32,141 nt of DNA from Psychromonas sp. B3M02. GTDB taxonomy: Bacteria; Pseudomonadota; Gammaproteobacteria; Enterobacterales; Psychromonadaceae. Both the position numbers and the translations under genes were made by a program. Shown in pieces: positions 6,100-31,775 of the stretch. The notes beneath the pieces are model-generated. The model worked only from the letters and a program-made list of their open reading frames with translations, had not been told where the DNA came from and did no database searches. The DNA lies in assembly GCF_003318165.1 (NCBI RefSeq), contig NZ_QOCB01000119.1, positions 1 through 32,141 on the forward strand. The letters run 5' to 3'. Numbering within the stretch: position 1 is the first letter of the stretch; each line of letters begins with the position of its first letter.

Positions 6100-6176
<77 letters not shown>

Positions 6177-6218
6177 ACTTTTTATAAAAGTTAATTGCGT
6201 TTAAGTATAAATATCGGA

Positions 6219-6295
<77 letters not shown>

Positions 6296-6316
6296 ACTTT
6301 TGTTTAAAGAAAGAAA

Positions 6317-6385
6317 AGCCCATCGGGCTCAACTCTTTATAAACAATGGCGAAGGTCGCAGATTTAAACCCTGCTATCGCAACCA
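6317..6385 (+). pseudogene. Decayed initiator tRNA remnant 1
   Basis: The 3' half resembles tRNA-fMet (CGAAGGTCG, then CTGCTATCGCAACCA), but the acceptor 5' strand and much of the D arm are missing. After GGGCTCA the sequence ACTCTTTATAAACAATGG replaces the 3' side of the anticodon arm, so no CAT anticodon loop can form. It sits between intact copies 2 and 3. Confidence 0.8.
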
Positions 6386-6413
6386 ATATTTAACGAAGTA
6401 AAACAATGACGGA

Positions 6414-6490
<77 letters not shown>

Positions 6491-6525
6491 ACTTTTCAGT
6501 TGTAAAATGAAACATCAATATCGGA

Positions 6526-6602
<77 letters not shown>

Positions 6603-17750: not shown

Positions 17751-19577
17751 TTACTTTACTTCCATATACGCTCTCCAACCACCAAACTCAGTAATGTCTT
17801 TCGCTGATTCAATAGCATAACCTTCACAGATAAAACTGGTCACCCAACTACCATCATCAAGTTCTACTTTGCCGAGCCCTAATGGCTCTGGGATACCCAC
17901 TAAAAAGCTACCCAGAGTGTTTTCTGGTAAACGCCATACTTCAATGTCAATGGCTGCACCTTGTTCTGCGACTCTGATTAAACCGGGACGAAATGGGGGA
18001 CCGCCCGCTAACGCATAAAAACGATAATCTGCTGACGTTTTAGTGCTTTTTACCAGATATCCACCACGTTCGGTTAATTGATGATTAAGCGGAAAACCAG
18101 ATAAGTGCGCACCACAAACAGCAATATCAACCAAACCAGGTGCTACTTCTTCACTAGTTGTTGTTACTTGCTTAATTAACTTATGTTGTGAAGCACCTAA
18201 TGTGAAATCTGTTGATGATTGCCATTGTGCACCAACACTTAATAATAAACGATCACTAAAAGCAGGGCCAAATAGCGTAATACCAAAGGGTAAACCAGAA
18301 GATAAAAAACCTGCAGGCAACGCAATTGCGGCATAATCTAATAGGTTCATAAAGTTGGTGTAATAACCGAGATTTGAATTAAGTTGAATCGGATCAGCTT
18401 CAACCTCTTTAATGCGGTATGCCGTGCCTGCTGTCGGCGTTAAGACACAATCTAATTCCGCTAAAATGGCATCACACTGTACTTTAAAAGCTTGTAAACG
18501 ATACATTGCCTTGAAAGTATCTACAGCTGAATGTGCCGTTGCACCACCCACAATAGTTTGTATTACTGGTAAACACTGGGTTGGATCGGCTTTGAAAAAT
18601 GCTTCAATAGCGGCATATCGCTCTGCTACCCAAGGGCCTTCATACAAGAGTCTTGCAGCATCTAAAAACGGTTGGAAGTTAATCGTAATAATCTCTGCAC
18701 CAGCGGCTTTTAAGCGCTCTACACTGTTTTCAAATAATGCCTGAGCGTCATGGTCACCAAAAAAGCTTAGCTGAGATGCTTCCGGTAAACCGACTTTTAA
18801 CCCTGACAGTGACTTGTTTGTATCATAATGCGCAGCACTGTTGGTGAGTAGGTTATCACGTGAGTAACAATCATCGGTATCTAACTCTGCTGCGATATCT
18901 AATACGAGGTTTACTTCACTAGTGCTATTAGCAAAAATAGTGACACAATCTAAGCTTTTACACGCAGGCACTACGCCAGTACAACTGATTAATCCTTTTG
19001 TTGCTTTCATCCCAACAATGTTATTTAACGCCGCAGGTACACGACCAGATCCCGCTGTATCAGTGCCTAAAGAGAAACTAACTTGTCCTGTTGCAACTGC
19101 CACTGCGCTACCAGAACTTGAACCACCAGAAACATACTCAGGATCAAAGCTATTATTTACCGCCCCCCAAGGGCTTCGTACTCCTACTAAGCCCGTTGCA
19201 AATTGGTCAAGGTTCGTTTTACCTAATGGAATCGCCCCAGCGTCAATCAATAGCTTTACAACACTGGACGACTCAGTTGGTTGAAATGAGTAGGCCTCAC
19301 AGCCTGCAGTAGTGGGTAACATAGCAAAATCAATATTATCTTTAGCGGCAAAGGGTACACCGTACAAAGGAAGCTCATCGATAGATTTAGACTCAAGGTC
19401 CGTTAACATCTGATCGAGCTGTTGCTCAGAAATGGTGCTGATCCAAACATGACTACTATCACTTTTGGCTTGTGCTAACTTAGCTTTTAAGAACGTTTTA
19501 ACGTCTAGCTCACCACTACGGTAAGCCGCTTTTAACACCTCTATATTCATATTTTGTTGTTGCATTAACTTATCCAT
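17751..19577 (-). CDS. atzF: Allophanate hydrolase
   Basis: A 608-residue two-domain enzyme that splits allophanate, finally giving two ammonia and two CO2. The N-terminal amidase-signature domain (about 1-450) has Lys79 in FAAKDNID, Ser153 in GGSSSGSA and Ser177 in DTAGSGR; the spacings equal those of the Lys/cis-Ser/Ser triad in Pseudomonas AtzF. The C-terminal domain (about 470-608), with VAVCGAHLSG-type and LPENTLGSFLVGIPEPLGLGKVELDDG segments, is the decarboxylating domain. The start overlaps the carboxylase stop by one base (TAATG), indicating coupled translation. It is the last gene of the guanidine locus. Past its stop only a weak CTATTAT/ATAATAG stem at 17710-17737 is seen. Confidence 0.95.
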   Translation of the reverse strand: MDKLMQQQNMNIEVLKAAYRSGELDVKTFLKAKLAQAKSDSSHVWISTISEQQLDQMLTDLESKSIDELPLYGVPFAAKDNIDFAMLPTTAGCEAYSFQPTESSSVVKLLIDAGAIPLGKTNLDQFATGLVGVRSPWGAVNNSFDPEYVSGGSSSGSAVAVATGQVSFSLGTDTAGSGRVPAALNNIVGMKATKGLISCTGVVPACKSLDCVTIFANSTSEVNLVLDIAAELDTDDCYSRDNLLTNSAAHYDTNKSLSGLKVGLPEASQLSFFGDHDAQALFENSVERLKAAGAEIITINFQPFLDAARLLYEGPWVAERYAAIEAFFKADPTQCLPVIQTIVGGATAHSAVDTFKAMYRLQAFKVQCDAILAELDCVLTPTAGTAYRIKEVEADPIQLNSNLGYYTNFMNLLDYAAIALPAGFLSSGLPFGITLFGPAFSDRLLLSVGAQWQSSTDFTLGASQHKLIKQVTTTSEEVAPGLVDIAVCGAHLSGFPLNHQLTERGGYLVKSTKTSADYRFYALAGGPPFRPGLIRVAEQGAAIDIEVWRLPENTLGSFLVGIPEPLGLGKVELDDGSWVTSFICEGYAIESAKDITEFGGWRAYMEVK

Positions 19578-22500
19578 TATAGTTTCTCCAAAATCATTAA
19601 GCGTTGCCCTGCATGTACCTGTGCGCCCTCTTTTTGCACAATACTCGCTACCTTGCCATCGGCAGGTGCAACCACTTCTATTTCCATTTTCATTGCTTCT
19701 AAAATTAATAAGGTTTGCCCTGCTTTTACGGTTTCCCCAGGCTTAACCAGTACTTGCCAAATATTGCCGGCAACATGACTATCCACACCGCGCTGTTGCT
19801 CAGTTAGACTAGCGATATCTGTTTCAATTTGCGTCATCTCTTTAGCGACAAAATTAGCCTGACCTGTTTCTTGCCAACGTTGGCGCTCTGCTTCAAACGC
19901 TTGTTGTTGCTTTTCTTTGAAGGTCACAATCGATGCTTGGTCTTCACTTAATTGCGCTTGATACTCTGCAAGACTAAAGGTTGTCTCTTCGATTTTTAAT
20001 GGATAATCACCACGAGGGAAGTCTTTACGGATCTGTGTTAACTCTTCGCTACTCACAGGGTAAAAACGTATTTGGTCGAAAAAGCGTAATAACCACGGTT
20101 TTTTAAACTCTTCTGTTTGACGGTAACGATTCCACATTTGTAATGTTCGCCCTACAAACTGATAACCGCCAGGGCCTTCCATGCCATAAACACATAGATA
20201 AGCACCACCGATACCCACTGCATTTTCTGGCGTCCAGGTTCTTGCAGGGTTGTATTTTGTCGTCACTAAACGATGACGCGGATCTAACGGTGTTGCCACT
20301 GGTGCCCCTAAATACACATCACCTAACCCCATTACAAGGTAACTCGCGTTAAAAACAATCTCTTTCACTTGCTCTACTGAATCAAGACCATTAATACGTC
20401 TAATAAACTCGATATTATCAGGGCACCATGGCGCATCTTTACGGACTAATTCGTCATATTTTTTTATGGCTAAACGCGTTGCGTAATCATCCCAAGAAAG
20501 AGGAATATTAACGATACGGGATGGCACTGACAGTTGGCTATCATCACCTAAACTCTGTTCAGCCTTCACAACGATGTCGAGTAGCTGATTAAGTGGTAAT
20601 TGTAAATTATCATAATGTATTTGTAGGGAGCGAATACCAGGTGTTAACTCTTGCATGCCCGATAAATTCAAACTTTGTAATTGCAGCATTAATGCATGAA
20701 CACGGAAGCGTAATGCCACATCTAATACCTGTTGACCATATTCCACTAACAGATAGTCTTCGCCACTCGCACGAAATACCACTTGCTCATTTAATGCCGT
20801 TTTATCTAGCTGTTTTATAATCGCACTTTCTGGTAACACACTAGGTAGCGTTTGAGGTAGATACTGACCTTGCTCGATGGCTGCTAACTGTGCCAGTTCA
20901 AACTGTTGGGCATCTTCTATAGAAACAGCTTGGAAGCGAATAGTTGCACCCGCCTTAAGCTGACCTACTTTCCATAAATCTGCTTTAATAATGGTGACCG
21001 GACAAACAAAACCACCTAGGCTTGGACCATCTGGGCCTAAAATCACTGGCATATCGCCCGTAAAATCAATGGTACCCACTGCATAGGCGTTATCGTGGAT
21101 ATTCGAAGGATGTAACCCTGCTTCGCCACCATCATTACGCGCCCATTTTGGTTTAGGCCCCATTAAACGGACCCCTGTACGGCTTGAATTAAAGTGTACT
21201 TTCCAAGTTGCCTCAAAAAATGCATCGATATCTTCTGGTTGGAAAAAATCAGGCGCACCATGTGGACCGTAAATAACACGGATCGTCCAATCATCGCTAA
21301 TGTTGGGTAATTGAGTATTTAGTTCATGATTTTTAATTATATTTTGTGATAATTCTTCAATGTGTAACACATCACCAGTACGCAATGCACGACCAGCATG
21401 ACCACCAAATTGGCCTAGGGTAAAGGTTGATTTACTGCCTAGGTAATCAGGACATTGAATACCACCTTGTACTGATAAATAACTGCGTGCACCTGCACCT
21501 TGAATATTACCAAGAGTCAGTGTTTGCCCAGCTTTAACGGTAATAATCTCACCAATTTTTATACTGTCTTGGTCTAACTCAGCTTGAATATTTGCACCCG
21601 TTAAAATAAAGCGAGTCGCACTATTGAAGCGAAGTGTAGGGCCACTGACTGTGATCTCTAAACCCGCATCACTTTTGTTATTACCTAACAACGTATTACC
21701 TAAGCAAAAGCTCAGGCTGTCCATTGGTCCTGATGGTGGTACACCGACATCCCAGTAACCTTTACGTCCAGGGTAATCTTGAATGGTCGTTTGGGTTCCC
21801 CCAGCTAAGACATCAATAGAAGTGGGTAAATAGGTAAACTGGTTTAAGGTTTGTGTTAACAACTCGCCTGCCTCAACGACATCGTTATTAAGTAGTTGTA
21901 ATAGATAATCTTTATTACTTTCAATACCGTAAACATGGCTTTCGGATAAGGCTTGCTTTAATCCCATTAACGCCTGTGAACGGCTATCACTGTGACAGAT
22001 GATTTTTGCTAACATAGGGTCAAAGAAAGGCGATACCTCTACACCACTTTCTAACCAATGGTCGATACGCAACTGACCTTGTTCGACTTCAGTTGCCCAT
22101 TTAACATGACTAATTAACCCCGCGCTTGGTTGGAAGTCTTTATTAGCATCTTCTGCATATAAACGCACCTGAATCGCATGGCCATTAGCCACTAATTTTG
22201 GGCTAAAATAAGCTAAAGGCTGCATAGTATTAGCCGCTAAACTGACCATCCAATTCACGATATCAACGCCATATACCATCTCTGTGACACCGTGCTCAAC
22301 TTGTAAACGCGTATTAACTTCTAAGAAGTAAAATTGTTGTGCTTGTTGGTCGAATACAAATTCCACTGTACCTGCACTGCGGTAATTCACCATCGCCGCG
22401 AGTCTTGTTGCAGTTTGATGTAACTCTGCGCGTAATTCATCACTTAAATTTGGGGCTGGACTTTCTTCGATCACTTTTTGGTTACGGCGTTGTGCAGAAC

Positions 22501-23182
22501 AATCTCGTTCTCCTAGGGCAATAGCGCCACCTTGACCATCACCAAATATTTGTACTTCAATATGACGAGCTTGCACAATAAATTTTTCTAAAAATAATGC
22601 ACTATTACTGAAGTTATTTTCACTTAACCTTTTTACTGAATCGTAAGCTTGGCTCAATTCTTCTGCGCTATTACAGCGCTGCATACCGATACCACCGCCA
22701 CCAGCAGTACTTTTTAACATCACTGGGTAACCAATCACATCAGCGCGTTGTAACGCATCTTCTACACTGTTTAATAAATCACTACCTGGCAATAATGGAA
22801 CCTGTGCTTGCTCTGCTAACTCACGTGCTCGGTGTTTTAAACCAAACTGCAACATCTGTTCAGCAGTTGGGCCTAAGAACACTAACCCATTCGCTTCACA
22901 GGCAGCAACAAAATCTACATTTTCACTTAAAAATCCATATCCAGGATGAATAGCTTGTGCACCACATTGCTTAGCAATGTTGATCACTTTATCCATATCA
23001 AGATAAGTTTGCTTAGCATTACCCTCTCCTAGAGAGAACGCATGGTCAGCTTGTGAAACATGAAGGCTATCAGCATCAGCTTGGCTGTAGATTGATACAC
23101 TTTCGATGCCCATGGCAGACAGTGTTCTAATAATACGGCAAGCGATAGCACCACGATTGGCAATTAATACTTTAGTAAACAT
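19577..23182 (-). CDS. Biotin-dependent guanidine (urea-type) carboxylase
   Basis: A 1201-residue single-chain carboxylase. Domains in order: biotin carboxylase (about 1-450, [18 protein letters not shown] and the ATP-grasp GGGGIGMQ), KipA/KipI-like carboxyltransferase domains (about 470-1050, with [13 protein letters not shown] and [13 protein letters not shown]) and a biotinyl domain with Lys1165 in EAMKME. Annotated as urea carboxylase in older work. Family members next to DUF1989 pairs and guanidine riboswitches were later shown to carboxylate guanidine, so guanidine is the likelier substrate. The start at 23182 has AAGG nine bases upstream, inside a guanidine-II riboswitch. Coupled to atzF. 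Confidence 0.93.
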
Positions 23183-23187
23183 AATAG

Positions 23188-23252
23188 TGACCTTGTACAG
23201 GTCGGGTCGTCCCGAATTAATACTGAGAATAACCAACAAGGTCGTCCTTGTT
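23188..23252 (-). promoter_or_regulatory. Guanidine-II (mini-ykkC) riboswitch before the carboxylase
   Basis: Two hairpins carry ACGA loops in the RNA: AACAAGG-ACGA-CCTTGTT (P1, 23252-23235) and TCGGG-ACGA-CCCGA (P2, 23215-23202), joined by a 19-nt linker. This is the guanidine-II architecture. The ribosome site ACAAGGTC (23196-23189) is a perfect 8-base complement of GACCTTGT in the P1 loop and 3' strand (23243-23236). Without guanidine that strand can cover the ribosome site; with guanidine P1/P2 form and release it. It predicts translational induction of carboxylase and allophanate hydrolase. Confidence 0.93.
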
Positions 23253-23280
23253 TTCTCATTATATGTATTGAATTAATATT

Positions 23281-23928
23281 TTATTTAGCGTCATCCCACA
23301 CTATCATTTCAACAGGTGTTGGATTGTAGGCATTACACGGGTTATTCAGCTGAGGGCAATTAGATAACAAGACAATGACATCCATGGCTGCTTTCATTTC
23401 AACATACTTACCTGCACCACTGATCCCATCTTCAAAGGTTAATCCACCCTCTTTAGTCACAGGTACATTCATGAAAAAATTGATGTTATGAGTAATATCA
23501 CGCTTGCTTAAACCGTATTGTGGATTTTCAGCCACTGCTAATAACCAACTATCACGACAAGCATGCATGCATTTTTTTTCTAGAGAATAACGCACTGTAT
23601 TACTTTCCGTTGCACATGCACCACCTAATGTATCGTGACGACCACAGGTATCAGCAGTAATTTCTAGCAGAGTATTACCATCGTTTGATAGCAGTTTGGT
23701 GCCCGCTGTTAGGTATACATTACCTTGTTCACGAATGGTATCCATTGCGCTGTAACGTTCGCTTGGGTCATTAGCGTTGTAAAATAAGGTATCAGCAGCT
23801 TGGTTACCTTCTAAATCTAAAATGCGTAAGGTTTGACCTGCTTTCACTACTTTCATGTAGTAATCACCTGCAGGAACGATATCGCGACGAACGGCATGTT
23901 CAGCTTGTAGTGGACTTTCAGTGATCAT
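23281..23928 (-). CDS. Carboxyguanidine deiminase subunit, DUF1989 (urea carboxylase-associated protein 1 type)
   Basis: A 215-residue DUF1989 protein. The N-terminus has [45 protein letters not shown], followed by [16 protein letters not shown] and a [17 protein letters not shown] segment. Together with the upstream paralogue it fits the CgdA/CgdB pair that converts carboxyguanidine to allophanate plus ammonia. I cannot say which letter applies. Start at 23928 is supported by TAGGAG; it follows the upstream stop by two bases, suggesting a translationally coupled heteromer. Conserved Cys/His/Asp residues ([19 protein letters not shown]) are candidate active-site or metal positions. Confidence 0.9.
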
Positions 23929-23930
23929 AA

Positions 23931-24698
23931 TTATGCTCCTACTGTATGTGTGTGGCCGTGTTGGCATTGGTAACGACGGTTATTTTCAAACCCGCGGCTA
24001 TTTTCACCACATAGGTTTACACAAAGATCATCATCGGCAACAGGTGCCGCTTTACTGACAGATAACAGAACTGGTAGATTTGGGTATTCACTGCTTGGGT
24101 TCATTGGATGTGGACAAGTTGAAATAATCACTAGCGTGTCCATTTCAAAACGTAGACCAACGCTATCGCCTGCTTTACTATGTTGCTCAACAAAGTTTAA
24201 ATCACCTTGATCATCACTAGCGACTTTACTAAAAATATTGATGTTGGCAGCTAAATCACGTTTACCTAAACCATATTTAGCCACTTCTACTAACAAACTA
24301 TCGTAACCATTTTGTAACCAGTTATTATGGTCACCTTGATAGTCACGTGCGCCCCATTTATCTAATACTTTTTGCTTGTTAGCTACACCACCAACAGTAT
24401 CAACCCAACCTGTATCATCACTAACAATAGAGCAGAAGATACGCCCCATATCCGAATATAAGCAGTGCCCTTGTGTGAGTTTGAAAGTGTGTTGACCTTT
24501 TAAGGTATCTGGCGCGTTATAACGTTCTAATAAATTATTTGGGTTATAAAACAACATGGATGCATTCGCACCGCCTTCCAAGTCAGTAACAGTCAATAAA
24601 TGACCTGCTGGCACGACGAGTGACCAGTGACTTGCACCTGGAATATGTTCTTCATAAATCGCATCTGCAACGCGATTATGCTGTTGATTTTTTTGCAC
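23931..24698 (-). CDS. Carboxyguanidine deiminase subunit, DUF1989 (urea carboxylase-associated protein 2 type)
   Basis: A 255-residue DUF1989 protein, partner of the next gene. Shared elements include [60 protein letters not shown] and [13 protein letters not shown]. Start is GTG with AGGAG seven bases upstream; an overlapping ATG two bases earlier is out of frame. The C-terminal tail (about residues 222-255) contains CVNLCG and then CQHGHTHT, a Cys/His-rich ending that may bind metal. It follows the ABC ATPase gene after 72 bases. The enzymatic assignment rests on published work with homologous guanidine clusters. Confidence 0.9.
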
Positions 24699-24770
24699 AT
24701 TGTTCTCCTAAACTACCTTTAATAGGCAGCAGTTATTTACACCATCGAAATGAATAACTCAAAATAATGG

Positions 24771-25667
24771 TTATTCAACATCATCACCTATATTCGTCAT
24801 TCGAATGAGTTGAAATCCCTCATCACCTTCCTCCCCTTCAGGGTGAATTAACTCTTCTAAACGCTTTTTAGTTGCTAAAAACTCAGGGGATAAAAGTTGT
24901 TCAGGGCTTCTTGGTCTTGGAACAGATACTTCTATCAGCTCTTCCACTTCACCGGGGTTAGCTTTAAGCACTAAAATTCTATCGGCAAGGAAAATGGCTT
25001 CATCTAAATCATGTGTGATAAACAACACAGTGATATCAATGTTTCGCCATATTTCTAATAAGTTAGTTTGCATTTTTAAGCGTGTTTGTGGATCAAGCGC
25101 ACCAAATGGCTCATCCATCAATAAAATACGTGGTTGATTTGCTAACGCGCGTGCAATTGCAACACGTTGCTTCATACCACCGGATAGTTGGTGAGGATAA
25201 GACTCCGCAAACTTACTTAATCCAACTAAGTCAACCCATTGCATTGCTTCACTTTCTGCAACGACATTGGCCATGCCTTTCATTTGCAAACCAAACATCA
25301 CATTTTTTTTAATGGTTAACCAAGGAAACAAGGTATAGCCTTGAAATACCATCCCTCTATCAGGGCCGGGTTCTGATTTAGGCTTACCATCAAGCAATAC
25401 TTGACCTTGTGTTGGGCTTTCTAAGCCTGCAAGGATCCGAATTAAAGTGGACTTACCACAACCTGAAGGTCCAATAACACAAACAAACTCTCTGCGGTGA
25501 GTTTTAAAGTTTATATCCTTTAACGCCGTGATATCCCCCTGTGAGGATTCAAAGATTTTGTACAAACCTTGTACTTCAAGAATAGCTTCGCGCTCTTTTA
25601 GTTTTTTAAAACGTGCAGCAACGTGCTCTGATTGTTGTAAATAACTAGGTAATGTTAAAGAATTCAT
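24771..25667 (-). CDS. ABC importer ATPase of the guanidine locus
   Basis: A 298-residue ATPase of the SsuB/TauB/NrtD group. Walker [10 protein letters not shown] is near residues 67-75, signature [16 protein letters not shown] near 160, Walker [16 protein letters not shown] near 180, and the switch His in FITHDLDEA. An N-terminal extension of about 30 residues precedes the nucleotide-binding fold, and a C-terminal acidic tail ([12 protein letters not shown]) follows it. Its start lies three bases past the permease stop, so permease and ATPase are coupled. It powers uptake of guanidine or a guanidino compound, by context. Confidence 0.93.
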
Positions 25668-25670
25668 TAT

Positions 25671-26639
25671 TTAGCCCTTATTCTTTGAACTTTCCCAAGG
25701 GAAAATATGTTGACCAATTTTGGCAAGTATTAGATCTATCACCATTCCTATGATTCCGATCATAATAATGGCAGCAAAAACGTTATCAAAATTCTTATAA
25801 CGTGCTTGTTGAGTAATGAACCAAGTAATACCTGAACTTGTCCCTATTAGCTCGGCAACAATTAAGTAAGTCCAAGCCCAACCAAGAAGAATACGTAAAT
25901 CACGATATAGATCAGGAATAATCCCTGGAATAACAATTCTCAACAATAGTTTAGCTTTACTCGCACCTAACGTAAGTCCAGCTTCAAGTAACGAAACATC
26001 CAATTTACGTGTGGTATTCGCCACGATTAACACTTGTTGGAAAAAAGTACCGATAAAAATAATGGCTATTTTGGGACCATCATGTATACCTAAAATGGCA
26101 ACAGCCAGTGCACCAAAAGCAGGTGCAGGTAAATATCTAAAAAACTCGATAAATGGTTCTTGCGACTTAGAAACAACCGCAAAAGTCCCACACAATATCC
26201 CTAATGGAACACCAATGATTGATGAAAGTAGAAAGCCCCAGAATATAACGGACATACTATGTAATAAGCTTTCATGGAGCCATTGTTCACTTCGTCGTTT
26301 GGGCTCTGTGGTAAATGCCGTATAAAATGCAGTCGCAACTTCATGTGGCGCAGGCAAGTAAACAGGGTTTACTCTATTGCCAATAGGTGCTTCAGTATTT
26401 GTTGCAACCGTTTTTTCAACTTCAGTTAAAAAGATTTCACGGTCAATTAGCATACCTTTTTGAAACCACTCGACTCCCCCTTGTTCTACAACTTCCACTT
26501 TAGGGTGCCAAATGAAAGGTACATAACTAACTACCGACCATATAAATAAAGGAAGTAAAAACGATAACACAGTCAACGAACGAGCTCGTATGGGGGATAG
26601 CGCTTTCCTTACAGTAAACCATGGGGTTTTCTCTTTCAT
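25671..26639 (-). CDS. ABC importer permease of the guanidine locus
   Basis: A 322-residue inner-membrane permease of the SsuC/TauC (binding-protein-dependent) type with about six or seven membrane segments. The first segment (LTVLSFLLPLFIWSVVSYVPFIW) is followed by a long periplasmic loop of roughly 60 residues before LHESLLHSMSVIFWGFLLSSIIG. The EAA-type loop, EAGLTLGASKAKLLLRIVIPGIIPDLYRDLRI, near residues 216-250 contacts the ATPase. This longer N-terminal form is typical of urea-carboxylase-region transporters. Confidence 0.92.
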   Translation of the reverse strand: MKEKTPWFTVRKALSPIRARSLTVLSFLLPLFIWSVVSYVPFIWHPKVEVVEQGGVEWFQKGMLIDREIFLTEVEKTVATNTEAPIGNRVNPVYLPAPHEVATAFYTAFTTEPKRRSEQWLHESLLHSMSVIFWGFLLSSIIGVPLGILCGTFAVVSKSQEPFIEFFRYLPAPAFGALAVAILGIHDGPKIAIIFIGTFFQQVLIVANTTRKLDVSLLEAGLTLGASKAKLLLRIVIPGIIPDLYRDLRILLGWAWTYLIVAELIGTSSGITWFITQQARYKNFDNVFAAIIMIGIIGMVIDLILAKIGQHIFPWESSKNKG

Positions 26640-26666
26640 AATCCTTCGCCTCTTAGGTAATTACTT

Positions 26667-27650
26667 TTAAAGACCTAATGTTATTGACGAATCAATATAA
26701 CTATCTACAGGTTGACTCTCTTTATAGACTTCATATTTAACATTGAAGTCATCAGCAAATTTAGACGAACCAAATAATGATGTTAGTTCATCACTTTTCT
26801 CAAAAACAGCTTTCGCTTCAGATAGGCTTAATATTTTTGTCCCCTCTAATAAAGGAGCATATTCTTCAGGAGATAAACCAACACGAGCAGACATGATAGT
26901 TAATGCTTCAGGGCGTGTTTTTGGATCATTTACAAAATCAACGACCTTGTACCAAACTTTTACCACCTTTTCCCAATCACTCTTACGTGTCGCATAAGAG
27001 GTAGGCGAAACAACATAAGTATCGTAAATTAAGCCCGGTGCGTCTTTTGAAGTTGTTAATGCTTTTGAACCCGGTGAAGTCACTAAAGCTTGACCAGAGC
27101 TAGGTTGCCAAGCGACAATTGCATCTACATCGCCAGATGCTAATACTTGCGGAGTTTCATTTGTTGGTACGTTAACAAGCTCCACATCATTTTCCGTCAT
27201 CCCAACTTTTTCAAGTGCATCAAGCAACATCAAGTGACTTACGTAACCCACTTCAACTCCAATTTTTTTACCTTTTAATTCTTTCAAAGAGTTGATTCCA
27301 GGATTAGCAACGACCATATCGTTACCATTACTGTAGTCATTAACCAATATCATAATGCCTTTAGCACCAGTAGAGCCAATCACTAACGCATCACCATTAG
27401 TCATACCTACGGCATCTAATTTACCAGCTGCAAATGCATCTAAAGAAGCAACATAATCAAACCATTCAAACTCAACTTCAACGCCAACTTCTTTAAACCA
27501 CTCTTTCTCTAACGCGACTTCCCAAGCTACCCAACCAGGCCAATCTGAATAACCAATTTTTAATGGTTCCACAGCGTTAGCAACGAAACTCATGACACTC
27601 ATCGACGCAATAATCGTACATTTTTTAATTAGATCTTTAATGTTTTTCAT
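26667..27650 (-). CDS. ABC importer substrate-binding protein of the guanidine locus
   Basis: A 327-residue periplasmic binding protein of the NMT1/SsuA-like superfamily, matching the subgroup found next to urea/guanidine carboxylases. Signal peptide: about 26 residues ending VANA. Mature start [25 protein letters not shown], then [20 protein letters not shown] and [14 protein letters not shown] precedes ATG. The ligand is probably guanidine, urea or a larger guanidino compound; the many Trp/Tyr/Asp residues in the first lobe would suit a small cation. The 143-base gap upstream holds no recognised element apart from a weak AATGAG/CTCATT stem. Confidence 0.92.
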
Positions 27651-27793
27651 AGATGACTCCTTTAGTTTTAAGTTTATAAAAAATAATAAATTGAATAATA
27701 AATCTTCACTTTTTATCTTTCGTAGCTCCCTTACTTTCTTTTTAAATTAATAACTGACATTCTCAATGAGCAAACCTATAAAATATCCTCTCA

Positions 27794-28738
27794 TTAAGTT
27801 AACTTTTGTAAATAACGTCCGATTGTTTCTTGCTCTGTATCAAACCATTTTTTCGATTTTTCATGCCATTCAGTTGTACCTGAATAAGCAAATTCAGCTT
27901 CTATTGTATCGATAGAAAAACGACGTTTTATTTGCTGTACTCCCTCTTTAAAAAATTGAAGCACTTCATTGTTTTCTTCATCAAACTCAAAACCATCAAG
28001 CTCAAAAAGAGACTCACCAACGCGCGTTGGCATAGTAGAAAAATTGATGTTAAAGCCCTCTGTCAAATTACCTTTAGCAACCGACGTTTCAAAATTGAAG
28101 ACTTGTTTTAAAAAAGGAATATCAGCAGAACCCTGTTTAACATGATCTCTTAACTGCGTATGTTTATCTAACTCAAGCTCACTTGAACGCCCTAACACTA
28201 AGCCAGCCCAATCACCATTAATGATTAATGCACCACCTTGATGACGTAACTCACCTGTTGTAAGATTCTCTTCGCTGATCAGTTCAAGGCTCAATAAAGC
28301 ACCTAGTTCACGTGATTTAATGCGCCAATCTTCTATATAAGACTCAAAAGGCGATGCTTCGATCATGCAATCACCCACTCGTGAAAGTATTGCAGGCTCA
28401 GGCCAGCGATTATGGATCTGAAATGAAGTCCCGCCAGACCAACTCAGCTGATTACCTTCCCAAGTGCTGTCTGCAGACCAACCTTCATAATTCGCTAATT
28501 GATAAAGAGCTTCAGCTGGACATTGTTCCCACGATTGATTAGCCACCATTTCCGATTCAATCGGTAAACGTAAATCGATAGTTAAATTACGACCTTGTAA
28601 CCAAAATACATGTGTATCAATATCCGTTTCACCACTCGCAAACGAGATACTTCGACGTTTAAAACAACCAATCATCCAATCAGGGATAGAGTTAGTCGCC
28701 TGTTGGCTATGTTGCTCAATAAGCGTTTTGATATTCAC
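27794..28738 (-). CDS. Unrecognised 314-residue protein in the guanidine operon
   Basis: I do not recognise this protein. No signal peptide or membrane segment is visible, so it is probably cytoplasmic. The N-terminal half has SIPDWMIGCFKRRSISFASG, THVFWLQGRNLTIDLRLP and many Trp residues; the middle has NRWPEPAILSRVGDCMIEASPFESYIEDWR; the rest alternates short hydrophobic stretches with acidic ones, suggesting a beta-rich fold. No nucleotide-binding or metal motif stands out. The start is GTG at 28738, one base past the dioxygenase stop, with AGGAAGG upstream; an upstream in-frame start would overlap the dioxygenase by 70 bases. Tight coupling argues that it works with the dioxygenase. Confidence 0.85.
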   Translation of the reverse strand: MNIKTLIEQHSQQATNSIPDWMIGCFKRRSISFASGETDIDTHVFWLQGRNLTIDLRLPIESEMVANQSWEQCPAEALYQLANYEGWSADSTWEGNQLSWSGGTSFQIHNRWPEPAILSRVGDCMIEASPFESYIEDWRIKSRELGALLSLELISEENLTTGELRHQGGALIINGDWAGLVLGRSSELELDKHTQLRDHVKQGSADIPFLKQVFNFETSVAKGNLTEGFNINFSTMPTRVGESLFELDGFEFDEENNEVLQFFKEGVQQIKRRFSIDTIEAEFAYSGTTEWHEKSKKWFDTEQETIGRYLQKLT

Positions 28739-28739
28739 A

Positions 28740-29792
28740 TCAACCTTCCTTAATTTCTGGTTTTCCAAAAGATAAAAGTGTTCTCGCATTTTCTGGTAAA
28801 TCGATTTCACCACGCGCTGATTTTTCTTTTAAATAACTGAAGGTTTGTATTGTTTGAGCAAGAAGGTGATCACCACAAATAATGGTTTCATAAGAAGAAG
28901 CATAATCGTCCTTTATAAGTGATTCGATTGGAGCAACAATCGTGTCGTAGTCTAAACTTGAAAAGAATGGGAAAGAGTAACGTTCTTCTTTAACTTGCCT
29001 CACGCGGTGAGAAGTTGCCACGTATAAACCATTTGAAACTTGCTCCATCATGTCGCCAATGTTAATAACAAAGCAATCATCAACTAAGGGAACATTGATC
29101 CATTCATTTGCACCATTCAACACTTGTAACCCAGGAGCAGTAGGCAATAAAATAGTAAAGAATTCGTAATCGGTATGAGCACCAATGCCGGAATCAGTTT
29201 CTTTGGCATCAGGATTATCAAAATAATGAATTAAACGAAGTTGGCTTGGCGGAACAGTAAGTTGTTTTGTAAAGGTATCTTCAGGTAAGCCTAACGCCAA
29301 AGCAAATCCCTGAAACAATATTCGACTTAACGATAACATTTCATCATAATAGGCTTTAACATGTTCTTTAAACCCTTCATGTTCAGGCCACTGGATATTA
29401 ACGTCTTTTTCAAATCGCGCCATTAAGCTCGGTGAATCAGGGCCAATATCGTATGCTTCTTTTAAATCTGGTTTTTTAGCCTCTGTACTATAAAAGCCTT
29501 CTTCTCCGATAGGCACATAACCTGAATGATTTTTTGATAAACCGATGTAATTTGCCATTTTACTATCTACATCTTGTTCAAAATATTCCTTAACCACTTG
29601 TTTTAGATTAGTTATTAGTTCAGGTTTTATTTGATGCCCTTTTAAATATAAAAAACCGACATCTCTAGCAGCTTTATCTAACTTCTGTGCGGCCTTAAGA
29701 CGGTCCTCTAATTGTTCAGAGAATAATAATGAAATATCGACAACAGGTAGCGCTGTAAAAGCTTTATGTGCTCCATTTTCAGATGTTGGCAT
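28740..29792 (-). CDS. Fe(II)/2-oxoglutarate dioxygenase, isopenicillin N synthase family
   Basis: A 350-residue non-heme iron oxygenase. The N-terminal DIOX_N region (LPVVDISLLF, then AARDVGFLYLKGHQI) occupies about residues 15-130. The C-terminal double-stranded beta-helix carries the iron facial triad His206-x-Asp208 in GAHTDYE and His262 in SHRVRQ, and Arg271-x-Ser273 for 2-oxoglutarate in ERYSFPFF, so it looks active. It is the first gene after the guanidine-I and guanidine-II riboswitches. Start at 29792 is set by AGAGGAG; an ATG 8 codons upstream lacks a site. Related enzymes that hydroxylate arginine or homoarginine release guanidine; that role here is inference. Confidence 0.9.
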   Translation of the reverse strand: MPTSENGAHKAFTALPVVDISLLFSEQLEDRLKAAQKLDKAARDVGFLYLKGHQIKPELITNLKQVVKEYFEQDVDSKMANYIGLSKNHSGYVPIGEEGFYSTEAKKPDLKEAYDIGPDSPSLMARFEKDVNIQWPEHEGFKEHVKAYYDEMLSLSRILFQGFALALGLPEDTFTKQLTVPPSQLRLIHYFDNPDAKETDSGIGAHTDYEFFTILLPTAPGLQVLNGANEWINVPLVDDCFVINIGDMMEQVSNGLYVATSHRVRQVKEERYSFPFFSSLDYDTIVAPIESLIKDDYASSYETIICGDHLLAQTIQTFSYLKEKSARGEIDLPENARTLLSFGKPEIKEG

Positions 29793-29825
29793 TTTGCTAA
29801 ACTCCTCTACAAGCATAGTTTGATG

Positions 29826-29879
29826 CTGGTCGTCCAGAATCTATCAGTAATATTTAATTACTGTTCGGGTCGTCCCGAA
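29826..29879 (-). promoter_or_regulatory. Guanidine-II (mini-ykkC) riboswitch before the dioxygenase
   Basis: RNA hairpins TTCGGG-ACGA-CCCGAA (P1, 29879-29864) and CTGG-ACGA-CCAG (P2, 29837-29826) carry the paired ACGA loops of guanidine-II. The 26-nt linker holds a third hairpin, CAGTAAT-TAAAT-ATTACTG (29863-29845), directly stacked on P1. Just after P2, AGCAT-CAAACT-ATGCT (29827-29812) can form a competing stem that shares two bases with P2 and ends near the ribosome site AGAGGAG. P2 is short, so confidence is slightly lower than for the internal copy. Confidence 0.88.
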
Positions 29880-29988
29880 ATTACTAAATAAATCTAATAA
29901 CTGATGTTGATAATTTAGAGGAAACCAATTAAAGAAGAAATGAGCAATCAGATATGATTATTCATGGTTACGTTTCAAAGGGTTTTCT

Positions 29989-30025
29989 AAATTAAAAGCA
30001 TGAGAGACATTGTTCTTGTCATCTC
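29989..30025 (-). terminator. Terminator-like hairpin of the guanidine-I expression platform
   Basis: In the RNA, GAGA(U)GACA (30025-30017) pairs with TGTCTCTC (30009-30002) with one bulged U, followed by ATGCTTTTAATTT. Its 5' arm is the same AGATG that closes aptamer stem P1, so aptamer and hairpin exclude each other, as in guanidine-I ON switches. Confidence 0.75.
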
Positions 30026-30112
30026 CCGGGCTTTTATCCCTCCGTGTAACCTTAGAAAAAGGTCGACAACTCTCGGACCAGTCACTGCATACAGCCGGAA
30101 CCCTAGATGTCT
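30020..30112 (-). promoter_or_regulatory. Guanidine-I (ykkC) riboswitch aptamer
   Basis: The RNA shows the hallmark conserved blocks in order: CATCTAGGGTTCCGG, ACTGGTCCGAGAG, ACACGG and GGGATAAAAGCCCGGGAGATG. P1 forms from CATCT (30109-30105) and AGATG (30024-30020). A variable stem ACCTT/AAGGT lies between the blocks. It senses guanidinium and should allow read-through of the following terminator hairpin. It lies about 110 nt upstream of a second, different-class guanidine riboswitch in the same leader. Confidence 0.95.
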
Positions 30113-30188
30113 ATTTTTATATTGTATATTGGCAACACTACGACTGCGACCAATGTCTCTCATACGAGCATTTTAACATTCTAATAAC

Positions 30189-30204
30189 AGCAATCACTGT
30201 GCCA
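30189..30204 (-). promoter_or_regulatory. Sigma-54 promoter of the guanidine operon
   Basis: TGGCACAGTGATTGCT is an excellent -24/-12 match (TGGCAC-N5-TTGCW). Transcription would start near 30178, about 70 bases before the guanidine-I aptamer. RpoN promoters are typical of nitrogen-scavenging genes and need an enhancer-binding activator such as NtrC. Confidence 0.8.
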
Positions 30205-30265
30205 AAAATTAAATTCGTTTATTTTCAATAATTTAAAGTTTTTCAAAAATAAATTTAAAATAAGA

Positions 30266-30299
30266 GCGCACCAATAGTAATCATATAATGCACCAACAA
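30266..30299 (-). promoter_or_regulatory. Two NtrC-like half-sites upstream of the sigma-54 promoter
   Basis: GCACCA occurs at 30268-30273 and 30290-30295, exactly 22 bases (two helical turns) apart, on the same helix face. On the operon strand they read TTGGTGC, the strong half of known NtrC sites; the other halves are poor. They lie about 90-115 bases above the predicted start, a normal enhancer distance. Confidence 0.5.
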
Positions 30300-30519
30300 C
30301 AAACAAAAATTGAGTGATTAGGTCTTTATAAAAATAAAAAGTAGAATAGAGAAACTAATGATAATGATTATATTCATCAATTATAAATAAAATATTATAA
30401 ACATATGTGATTAATGGGTTTATCTATCAGATGCGAGTATAAATAATAGCAACTATTAGTTAATATATACCTCTAAAGATATCAATTCATTCATATCGAT
30501 ACTGAAATGGAAACGCATT

Positions 30520-31569
30520 TTGAATAAACAAAGACATGTAGTTATTGTTGATGACCAGTCAACGGGCAGAATGATTTTACAAAAGGTTATTTTACAAATC
30601 GCAAATGACATTAAAGTCATTGATTTTGCAGACCCTTATGATGCCTTACAATGGTTGAGCAAAAATCCAGCCGATCTCATTGTAACTGATTACAGAATGC
30701 CTGGTTTAAATGGTATTGAGTTTATTCAAGAAGTACGAAAATTAAATCATGGTGAACATGTTCCAATCATGATGATTACCGTGGTCAGTGAAAAAGCCAT
30801 TCGCTATAAAGCATTAGATGCCGGTGTTACGGCATTTTTAACTCGCCCTATTGATCAAATAGAATGCCGTACCACATGTAGAAATCTACTTAAGCTTCAT
30901 CAGCAGCATGTCATTATTCAAAATAGAGCGGATTGGCTTGCACAACAAGTTGAACTAGCCACTGAACAAATTTTACAACGAGAAAAAGAAACCATCTTAA
31001 AATTAGCTAAAGCCGGTGAATACCGAGATGAAGAAACCGGTAACCACGTTATTAGGATGGCTAAATATTCCAAAGAGATTGCCTGTGAAATGGGATTAAC
31101 AGAAGCGGAATGCAGTGACTTAGAGCATGCGGCACAAATGCACGATATAGGTAAAATAGGCATCCCAGATAAAATCTTACTCAAACCAGGTAAATTTGAA
31201 CCCGATGAATGGACAATAATGCAAACTCATGCGGCTATTGGATCTGAAATATTATCAGGCAGTGAATCAAAGTATATGCAAATGGGGGCGATTATCGCAC
31301 TTAATCACCATGAACGCTTTGATGGAAGCGGTTACCCCAATAAACTCGCAGGTGAAAATATTCCTCTTATTGCGCGTATCGTGTCAGTTGCAGATGTATT
31401 TGATGCGTTAATTTCTGTGAGACCGTATAAAAAAGCATGGCCAATTCAAGATGCTATAGACTTTATTATAGCTAATTCCGGAACACAATTTGATCCGCAA
31501 TGTGTTGACGCTTTTAAAGCGTGTTTGCCAAGCATTTTAAAAATACAGAGTGAATACCCAGATAGTTAA
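30520..31569 (+). CDS. RpfG-like response regulator with HD-GYP phosphodiesterase domain
   Basis: A 349-residue protein: receiver domain (about 1-125) with Asp57 as phosphate acceptor in VTDYRMPG, a coiled-coil linker (about 130-160), and an HD-GYP domain (about 165-345) with His208-Asp209 in HDIGKIG and HHERFDGSGYP at 263-273. It should hydrolyse cyclic di-GMP when phosphorylated. The usual receiver Lys before the Pro is Arg here (LTRPID). The start is TTG with GGAA upstream; no suitable ATG lies before the first beta strand. The following gene encodes an RpfC-like sensor, matching the RpfC-RpfG pair that responds to diffusible signal factors. Confidence 0.9.
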   Translation: MNKQRHVVIVDDQSTGRMILQKVILQIANDIKVIDFADPYDALQWLSKNPADLIVTDYRMPGLNGIEFIQEVRKLNHGEHVPIMMITVVSEKAIRYKALDAGVTAFLTRPIDQIECRTTCRNLLKLHQQHVIIQNRADWLAQQVELATEQILQREKETILKLAKAGEYRDEETGNHVIRMAKYSKEIACEMGLTEAECSDLEHAAQMHDIGKIGIPDKILLKPGKFEPDEWTIMQTHAAIGSEILSGSESKYMQMGAIIALNHHERFDGSGYPNKLAGENIPLIARIVSVADVFDALISVRPYKKAWPIQDAIDFIIANSGTQFDPQCVDAFKACLPSILKIQSEYPDS

Positions 31570-31775
31570 CTAATACTAATCACACTATATAACTGATCTA
31601 TTTAGCTTGTTAAACTAACTTCTTTTCTCGTTCATTCTTTGACAGATCATTACCGAAAATAGTCTTCGGAGTTAAAACTTGGGCTTTTAACTGAGTCGCT
31701 TAACTACTTAACAGTTAAATCATTTATTGACTACAATTACTATAAAATAATTATTAACACAGGCTACATCTATTA
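31570..31775 (+). other. Gap between RpfG-like and RpfC-like genes
   Basis: No reading frame, repeat or terminator hairpin is apparent in these 206 bases, so the two genes may have separate promoters or a long untranslated spacer. Confidence 0.4.

Follow-up and report, generated by a model that had tools for sequence, protein, structure and literature searches.

Does the leader of an operon for guanidine-type compounds in Psychromonas sp. B3M02 carry two unrelated guanidine riboswitch folds one behind the other and, if so, how would such a tandem work and how did it arise? The locus lies in contig NZ_QOCB01000119.1, of which a stretch of 32,141 nucleotides (hereafter, the window) was analysed. 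The minus strand of the window holds an operon for guanidine-type nitrogen compounds, comprising mgdH, mgdL, an ABC importer, cgdA, cgdB, gca and atzF. Table 1 reports the coordinates of the features discussed below. Elsewhere in the window, four tRNA genes with equal Rfam scores lie in a row on the plus strand (6100-6599).

Table 1. Features of the window, in descending order of position along the minus-strand operon and its leader
Feature	Position	Strand	Remarks
Sigma-54-type promoter element TGGCAC-N5-TTGCT	30189..30204	-	starts 98 nt before the CTAGGG of Gd-I; one of two strict matches in the window
Guanidine-I (Gd-I) riboswitch aptamer	30021..30117	-	RF00442 89.9 bits, cut-off 63, E 3.8e-15
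Terminator-type hairpin consuming the Gd-I P3 strand	29993..30036	-	fold -14.8 kcal/mol; U-run 29994-29997
Exchanged cassette, putative (Gd-II-type element, mgdH, mgdL, SBP, permease, ATPase)	24714..29991	.	no blastn match to sibling locus L140
Hairpin 1 of leader Gd-II-type element, TTCGGG-ACGA-CCCGAA	29864..29879	-	
Linker hairpin CAGTAAT-TAAAT-ATTACTG	29845..29863	-	directly 3' of hairpin 1
Hairpin 2, GATTCTGG-ACGA-CCAGCATC	29822..29841	-	one mismatch; core CTGG-ACGA-CCAG 29826-29837
Predicted OFF-state hairpin AGCAT/ATGCT	29812..29827	-	excludes hairpin 2
Shine-Dalgarno AGAGGAG of mgdH	29802..29808	-	
mgdH	28740..29792	-	2-oxoglutarate/Fe(II) dioxygenase, probable methylguanidine hydroxylase; PF14226 + PF03171; adjoins mgdL
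mgdL	27794..28744	-	probable N-(hydroxymethyl)guanidine lyase; start codon uncertain
ABC importer genes	24771..27650	-	SBP 26667-27650, permease 25671-26639, ATPase 24771-25667; Pfam + NCBIfam matches
cgdA + cgdB (DUF1989), carboxyguanidine deiminase subunits	23281..24698	-	TIGR03425 + TIGR03424 above cut-off
Internal canonical Gd-II riboswitch before gca	23202..23253	-	RF01068 38 bits, cut-off 32
gca, urea/guanidine carboxylase	19577..23182	-	TIGR02712 urea carboxylase 1837.8 bits, cut-off 1303.85
atzF, allophanate hydrolase	17751..19577	-	ORF; 90% to same-place ORF of sibling L140; putative name, from operon position

In Vreelandella boliviensis, MgdH has been demonstrated to hydroxylate methylguanidine, and MgdL to cleave the product into guanidine and formaldehyde (PMC12508155, from which the function names of cgdA and cgdB are also taken). 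In the window's MgdH, H206, D208, H262 and R271 are invariant over 13 aligned sequences at the H-x-D...H and R positions; in MgdL, D57-x-R59 is invariant over 17, with the spacing of the catalytic D49/R51 reported in PMC12508155. Because the gene neighbourhood, the MgdL D-x-R motif and the MgdH positions agree, we match both proteins to those of Vreelandella, and the first gene of the operon probably encodes the methylguanidine hydroxylase MgdH, and the next one MgdL. Among solved structures, the one closest to MgdH belongs to an ethylene-forming-type enzyme (9ovh, 162 bits), and for MgdL the Pfam search returned no family and no solved structure was found. MgdH shares 94% identity with a protein of Psychromonas arctica; an mgdH-like protein occurs in three of the 24 genomes of the genus (E 1e-40), the window's own copy being the only one above 51% identity, and mgdL is present in two of the 369 genomes of the class (E 1e-20). 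For the importer binding protein, the nearest among the compared loci is that of Thalassolituus (76%).

The first element of the leader is a Gd-I aptamer. It matches all 107 positions of the RF00442 model and reaches the gathering score, and it is the sole Gd-I match at E 0.001 in the 3.86 Mb genome, so that the canonical guanidine-I aptamer proposed in an earlier note on this DNA is borne out. The same note had claimed an overlapping terminator-like hairpin. The P3 strand GGGAUAAAAGCCCGGGAGA is predicted to pair with UCUCUCAUGCUUUUA (29993-30036); 9 of 200 simple shuffles fold equally low, and a consensus terminator scan found no terminator. The U-run is short. The hairpin sequence is kept in sibling Gd-I leaders, and the full terminator helix differs from the minimum-energy fold in four of the 11 folded leaders, the window being among the 11 (L011, L014, L029 and L031, the last of which retains the upper stem). 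The Gd-I terminator is plausible but weak.

Upstream of the aptamer stands a sigma-54-type promoter element, which is kept in sibling L023. Of 62 Gd-I sites, with related species counted separately, 36 have a comparable element in the 250 nt before them, on a background of 0.013 per 300 nt. In addition, such an element is found 33-56 nt before hairpin 1 in 35 of 58 mgdH leaders (window included; related species again counted separately). Their presence before both kinds of leader suggests nitrogen control placed atop riboswitch control.

The second element is a double ACGA hairpin at 29826-29879 of the minus strand, 33 nt upstream of the mgdH start. Like known Gd-II elements, it consists of two stem-loops of similar build, each with an ACGR loop on a G-C closing pair, and both hairpins keep the published pocket positions (G6-C11, A7, C8, G9 and R10; PMC5486947). 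The linker of 22-29 nt, depending on counting, falls within the known Gd-II range of about 7-40 nt, the great majority being of at least 13 nt as given in PMC7544219 and PMC5486947. The sequence GGACGACC occurs four times in the window against 0.18 expected, twice in the leader element and twice in the internal Gd-II. The Rfam Gd-II model RF01068 gave the leader element 14.7 bits, below the cut-off of 32, which leaves it outside formal Rfam membership. A comparative model (R2), built from 24 homologous mgdH leaders with the window left out, scored 50.8 bits in a search of the window (E 7.7e-14), and genome-wide the leader element was the sole match at E 0.001 (E 9.3e-12); the next match inside the window (20.4 bits, E 7e-5) overlaps the internal Gd-II. 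This model tests the element of the window and not the hairpin pattern, because its 24 leaders were picked by that pattern.

The arrangement is widely kept in relatives. Sixty-one named loci were gathered via mgdL, 59 of them with an adjacent mgdH, and in 57 of these 59 at least two ACGR hairpins of at least four pairs lie within 200 nt before mgdH. The gene-proximal hairpin is CTGG-ACGR-CCAG in 56 of the 57 and CTGG-ACGG-CCGG in one (L094). The exceptions are L044 and L071, in which a search before mgdH gave no double hairpin; two further loci gave no mgdH match, L074 and L072, the latter with two ACGR hairpins upstream of mgdL. Among the 295 genomes of the order, two contain the pattern GGGACGRCCC-N13-43-CTGGACGRCCAG, that of the window and one whose match equals that of Colwellia echini (L041), where it lies upstream of mgdH; the reversed control pattern occurred once in the 295 genomes. 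Chance hairpins are ruled out by the excess of GGACGACC, the R2 score, the uniqueness in the genome and the rarity of the pattern. On account of the R2 score and the conservation in relatives, we take the leader double hairpin, despite the Rfam result, to be a genuine and conserved Gd-II-type element associated with mgdH, as far as sequence can tell. The claim of a guanidine-II double hairpin by the mgdH ribosome site thus holds by the comparative model and the relatives, and not by the Rfam model.

The linker of the window holds a hairpin of its own, and only one of 200 linker shuffles folds as well. Over six leaders (the window and its five nearest, a small set), compensatory changes are seen at two of six pairs; the number of pairs changed on both sides, three, was reached by 28 of 500 shuffles and the covariation score by none of 500. 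Among the distinct mgdH linkers, measured from CCC to CTGG, six are of 14-15 nt and unstructured and 37 are of at least 23 nt; for 17 of the latter, no more than 5% of simple shuffles fold better.

From the end of the Gd-I aptamer to hairpin 1 there are 141 nt, and from the end of the terminator helix about 113 nt, close to the roughly 110 nt first given. Two unrelated guanidine-type folds are located in order, on one strand, upstream of mgdH, as had been proposed, the first with a terminator-type platform and the second by the ribosome site. The search of other genomes for the same pairing found it in one genome only: a pattern search yielded 106 distinct Gd-I sites for which 600 nt or more of downstream sequence could be inspected, and that of the window alone is followed within 600 nt on the same strand by a double GG-ACGR hairpin. 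With a Gd-I model (R1) whose training set includes the window, run over the 61 mgdL loci and the window, a Gd-I directly upstream of an mgdL locus on the same strand was seen in the window only, so that no tandem recurring across species was found among these loci. In the other mgdL loci, Gd-I either occupies the opposite strand, comes after mgdL or went undetected in the available sequence; it follows mgdL in L041, L042, L064 and L074, and lies about 9 kb beyond it in L081 and L090.

Separately, many Pseudomonas loci (e.g. L078, L080 and L082-L089, at about 8.5-9.0 kb) have a Gd-I and an mgdH-type Gd-II arranged divergently, on opposite strands of one intergenic region. Some Pseudomonas loci hold three Gd-I within about 6 kb, as L080 does (8548, 13093 and 14479, minus strand).

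That the pairing was undescribed, as the earlier note supposed, agrees with the available text of a 2022 review on tandem riboswitches, according to which none of the four guanidine classes had been seen in a tandem (PMC9481103), and with the report on Vreelandella, where Gd-II is internal, before gca (PMC12508155). A tandem of this type could escape surveys, because a search with the Rfam model would miss the leader element. Judged by its letters, the same-leader tandem of two guanidine riboswitch folds is genuine.

A comparison with sibling loci bears on the origin of the tandem. The sibling locus L140, which is the same locus without the tandem, shows about 85% nucleotide identity to the window over 17762-24713 (atzF, gca, Gd-II, cgdB and cgdA) and again over 29992-31626 (from the Gd-I terminator end to the regulator), and its importer at the intervening site is a different one, with 26-40% protein identity. 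At one end identity breaks off at the U-run of the Gd-I terminator; at the other, it resumes before cgdA. The match to a second sibling (L142) likewise stops at 29994, apart from 102 bases that align within the ATPase gene. In the first sibling (genome G021), the gene for the regulator adjoins Gd-I and is 89% identical; near the mgdH-like gene of this genome (L141, 47%), no Gd-II-like pair was found. Base composition does not mark the segment (GC 0.36-0.40, and 0.33-0.44 around it). Because identity is about 85% on both sides and absent over 24714-29991, where the sibling importer differs, a cassette with its own Gd-II-type element, mgdH, mgdL and importer appears to have replaced the native importer, the tandem being the seam.

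An origin of this kind raises the alternative that the tandem is a by-product of cassette exchange in which one element matters: Gd-I would control the operon and the Gd-II-type element, having come with mgdH, would add little, or the reverse. The native Gd-I unit ends exactly where the cassette is joined on, the pairing is unique among the Gd-I sites compared and the mgdH Gd-II elements of relatives stand without an adjacent same-strand Gd-I, all of which fit such an accident. However, with flanks diverged by about 15% from the sibling, Gd-I still matches the whole model, and the leader element retains every published pocket position and a strong match to the mgdH-type model. We consider this explanation unlikely, albeit the best surviving of the alternatives to a working tandem.

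A second alternative places the two elements on different transcripts, with a promoter in 30020-29880 giving a short mgdH mRNA that carries Gd-II alone, and Gd-I governing a longer mRNA. In Pseudomonas relatives a short mgdH mRNA with Gd-II alone is probably made, and the sigma-54-type elements closely preceding hairpin 1 in most mgdH leaders, together with the AT-richness of the stretch between the elements, point in this direction. An intervening promoter, by which the earlier note expected its proposal to fall, was sought on the minus strand of the window: between Gd-I and hairpin 1 no sigma-54-type element was found, nor between the two elements any sigma-70-like site (at least 9 of 12 positions), the sigma-70 scan being weak evidence, with five sites overall against 4.7 in shuffles. 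Separate transcripts in the window appear distinctly improbable.

The leader element differs in its details from canonical Gd-II. Like RF01068 as described in PMC5486947 and PMC7544219, it has two ACGR hairpins with G-C closing pairs, a linker within 7-40 nt and a ribosome site just downstream; unlike it, the element scores below the Rfam cut-off, the third pair of hairpin 2 is U-A, the longer linkers of the mgdH type hold an extra hairpin, and the first of its hairpins is the CGGG-ACGR-CCCG one. All 20 distinct gca-type elements (from the same loci, mostly Pseudomonas and of low diversity) have G-C as the third pair of hairpin 2, whereas of the 43 distinct mgdH-type elements 42 have U-A there and one U-G; the third pair of hairpin 1 is G-C in 41 of these 43. 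For this count hairpin 2 was placed by a TGG pattern, and a pattern-free scan agrees; a G-C third pair as a mark of canonical Gd-II was devised in this analysis, and the leader element has U-A there. The Rfam model reported the mgdH element neither in the window nor in the relatives L038-L043 and L077, all seven of which were run; in L077, two sub-threshold matches align Rfam P2 to the first hairpin and P1 to the second. A strict 'permuted Gd-II' was rejected: GGG in hairpin 1 is shared by the canonical elements L135, L138 and L139, and is missing from that hairpin in Acinetobacter L133. The U-A third pair is thus a firmer mark of the mgdH type, among the sequences compared, than hairpin order.

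R2 gave six matches at E 1e-4 over 369 genomes of the class, including the window, the other five scoring 27-32 bits. These did not widen the set of mgdH-type elements, L135, L138 and L139 being canonical elements before gca and L136 and L137 being without two such hairpins. L041, L072, L084, L085 and L092 showed no double hairpin in the 150 nt upstream of gca; in L084 and L085 one lies somewhat further up. On the Acinetobacter plasmid L133, two GG-ACGA-CC hairpins (before 4961) that Rfam does not report stand ahead of a distant mgdH-like gene, and mgdL-like and SMR-family transporter genes follow downstream. No hairpins were found upstream of the distant mgdH of Novosphingobium L132.

That the leader double hairpin is some other protein- or ligand-binding RNA which resembles Gd-II and senses no guanidine would accord with the failing Rfam model, the U-A pair and the tie to mgdH, but it is very improbable given the intact pocket positions, the two ACGR hairpins with a linker of published length and the genes for guanidine-type compounds directly downstream.

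How the double hairpin would act on the mgdH ribosome site was explored by folding. One free-state fold, begun 20 nt upstream of the hairpins, has GGAGTTTA at the ribosome site base-paired with TAGATTCT (29836-29843), which belongs to hairpin 2. Forcing both hairpins in the window costs about 0.9 kcal/mol, and the computed exposure of the ribosome site rises from 0.24 to 0.35; over 55 leaders treated in the same way, exposure rises by more than 0.05 in 29 and falls in nine, with a mean going from 0.23 to 0.27. In the minimum-energy fold of 29785-29945, as low as which none of 200 shuffles folds, both hairpins are formed and the ribosome site is still paired, its partner being an upstream pyrimidine stretch, which counts against the proposed release of the ribosome site. 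The predicted OFF-state hairpin appears in one free-state fold of the window and is absent from the longer fold 29785-29945. Over the window and the five nearest leaders, 93% of the cells of this type of hairpin are paired, with no pair changed on both sides. In many relatives, a helix can form between the bases after hairpin 2 and those after the ribosome site (mean score 11.8 with own partners and 9.5 with swapped ones, sd 0.40); none of 1000 swaps scored as high over 33 distinct pairs, a figure that is not a probability, since the sequences are related. This helix was not found in that form in the window and the five nearest leaders.

The earlier note had both folds respond to the same ligand, and this holds for guanidine going by the published classes and is probably incomplete. 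As reported in PMC12508155, Gd-I of this operon type binds guanidine with a KD of 44 µM and leaves methylguanidine unbound in the tested range, and Gd-II binds guanidine (93 µM) and methylguanidine (83 µM) about equally; in crystals, methylguanidine fits the Gd-II pocket (PMC5486947). Because published Gd-II binds both and Gd-I guanidine alone, a Gd-II placed on mgdH would sense the substrate and the product of the pathway, and Gd-I the product only.

Returning to the working tandem, we favour, with a probability of roughly 0.6, a terminator gated by guanidine and, behind it, a translation gate that takes guanidine or methylguanidine, the two brought together by cassette exchange. A transcript started at the sigma-54-type promoter would meet Gd-I first, and the guanidine-bound P3 would compete with the terminator hairpin and let transcription proceed. 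On the surviving transcript, guanidine or methylguanidine would lock the Gd-II-type hairpins together and free the mgdH ribosome site; mgdH would be translated, and mgdL probably by coupling. A third element, the canonical Gd-II, would gate gca further downstream. The tandem itself would have arisen when the cassette was joined directly behind the Gd-I terminator in place of the native importer. Within this explanation, ligand binding, the switching of terminator and ribosome site, the identity of MgdH and MgdL and a common transcript are the parts that we infer.

A bolder version, possible but with the odds against it, is a two-ligand, self-priming circuit, for which the mgdH-type Gd-II, which Rfam did not report in the relatives examined, would form a subtype of its own, with the order of hairpin types inverted and suited to the purpose. 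Methylguanidine on its own would open only the second gate, and the few transcripts leaking past the Gd-I terminator would yield MgdH, which with MgdL would make guanidine from methylguanidine and so open the first gate. If true, substrate sensing at translation would become product-driven induction of transcription.

Three known arrangements come close to the one proposed here. The gca/mgdH operon of Vreelandella boliviensis shares the importer, cgdA/B, gca, atzF, mgdH and mgdL, and has Gd-I at its start and Gd-II before gca (PMC12508155); in that operon, gca and atzF flank mgdH and mgdL, and the available text mentions no Gd-II on mgdH, whereas in the window mgdH comes first, with its own Gd-II-type element directly behind Gd-I, which makes three guanidine elements in the one operon. 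The SAM-II/SAM-V 'bi-mechanism' tandem likewise joins two different folds for one ligand in one leader, with control of transcription and translation (PMC9481103; PMC11508383). It differs in ligand and folds; in addition, the second gate here probably takes a second ligand, and both gates are predicted ON switches. Finally, in the guanidine operons of Raoultella, Erwinia and Klebsiella, Gd-I acts on importer and cgd genes and Gd-II on gca, and the riboswitches precede different genes in separate leaders, mgdH and mgdL going without mention in the accessible text (PMC12186494).

In conclusion, a candidate guanidine tandem is now at hand, compared to none in the 2022 survey as far as its available text goes (PMC9481103). 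The sibling locus, about 85% identical on both sides and without the tandem, offers a natural control for the effect of the second gate. In addition, the conserved Gd-II-type element on mgdH may explain the induction of methylguanidine use outside Vreelandella, and the locus illustrates how a single exchange of a cassette next to a terminator can create a double gate.
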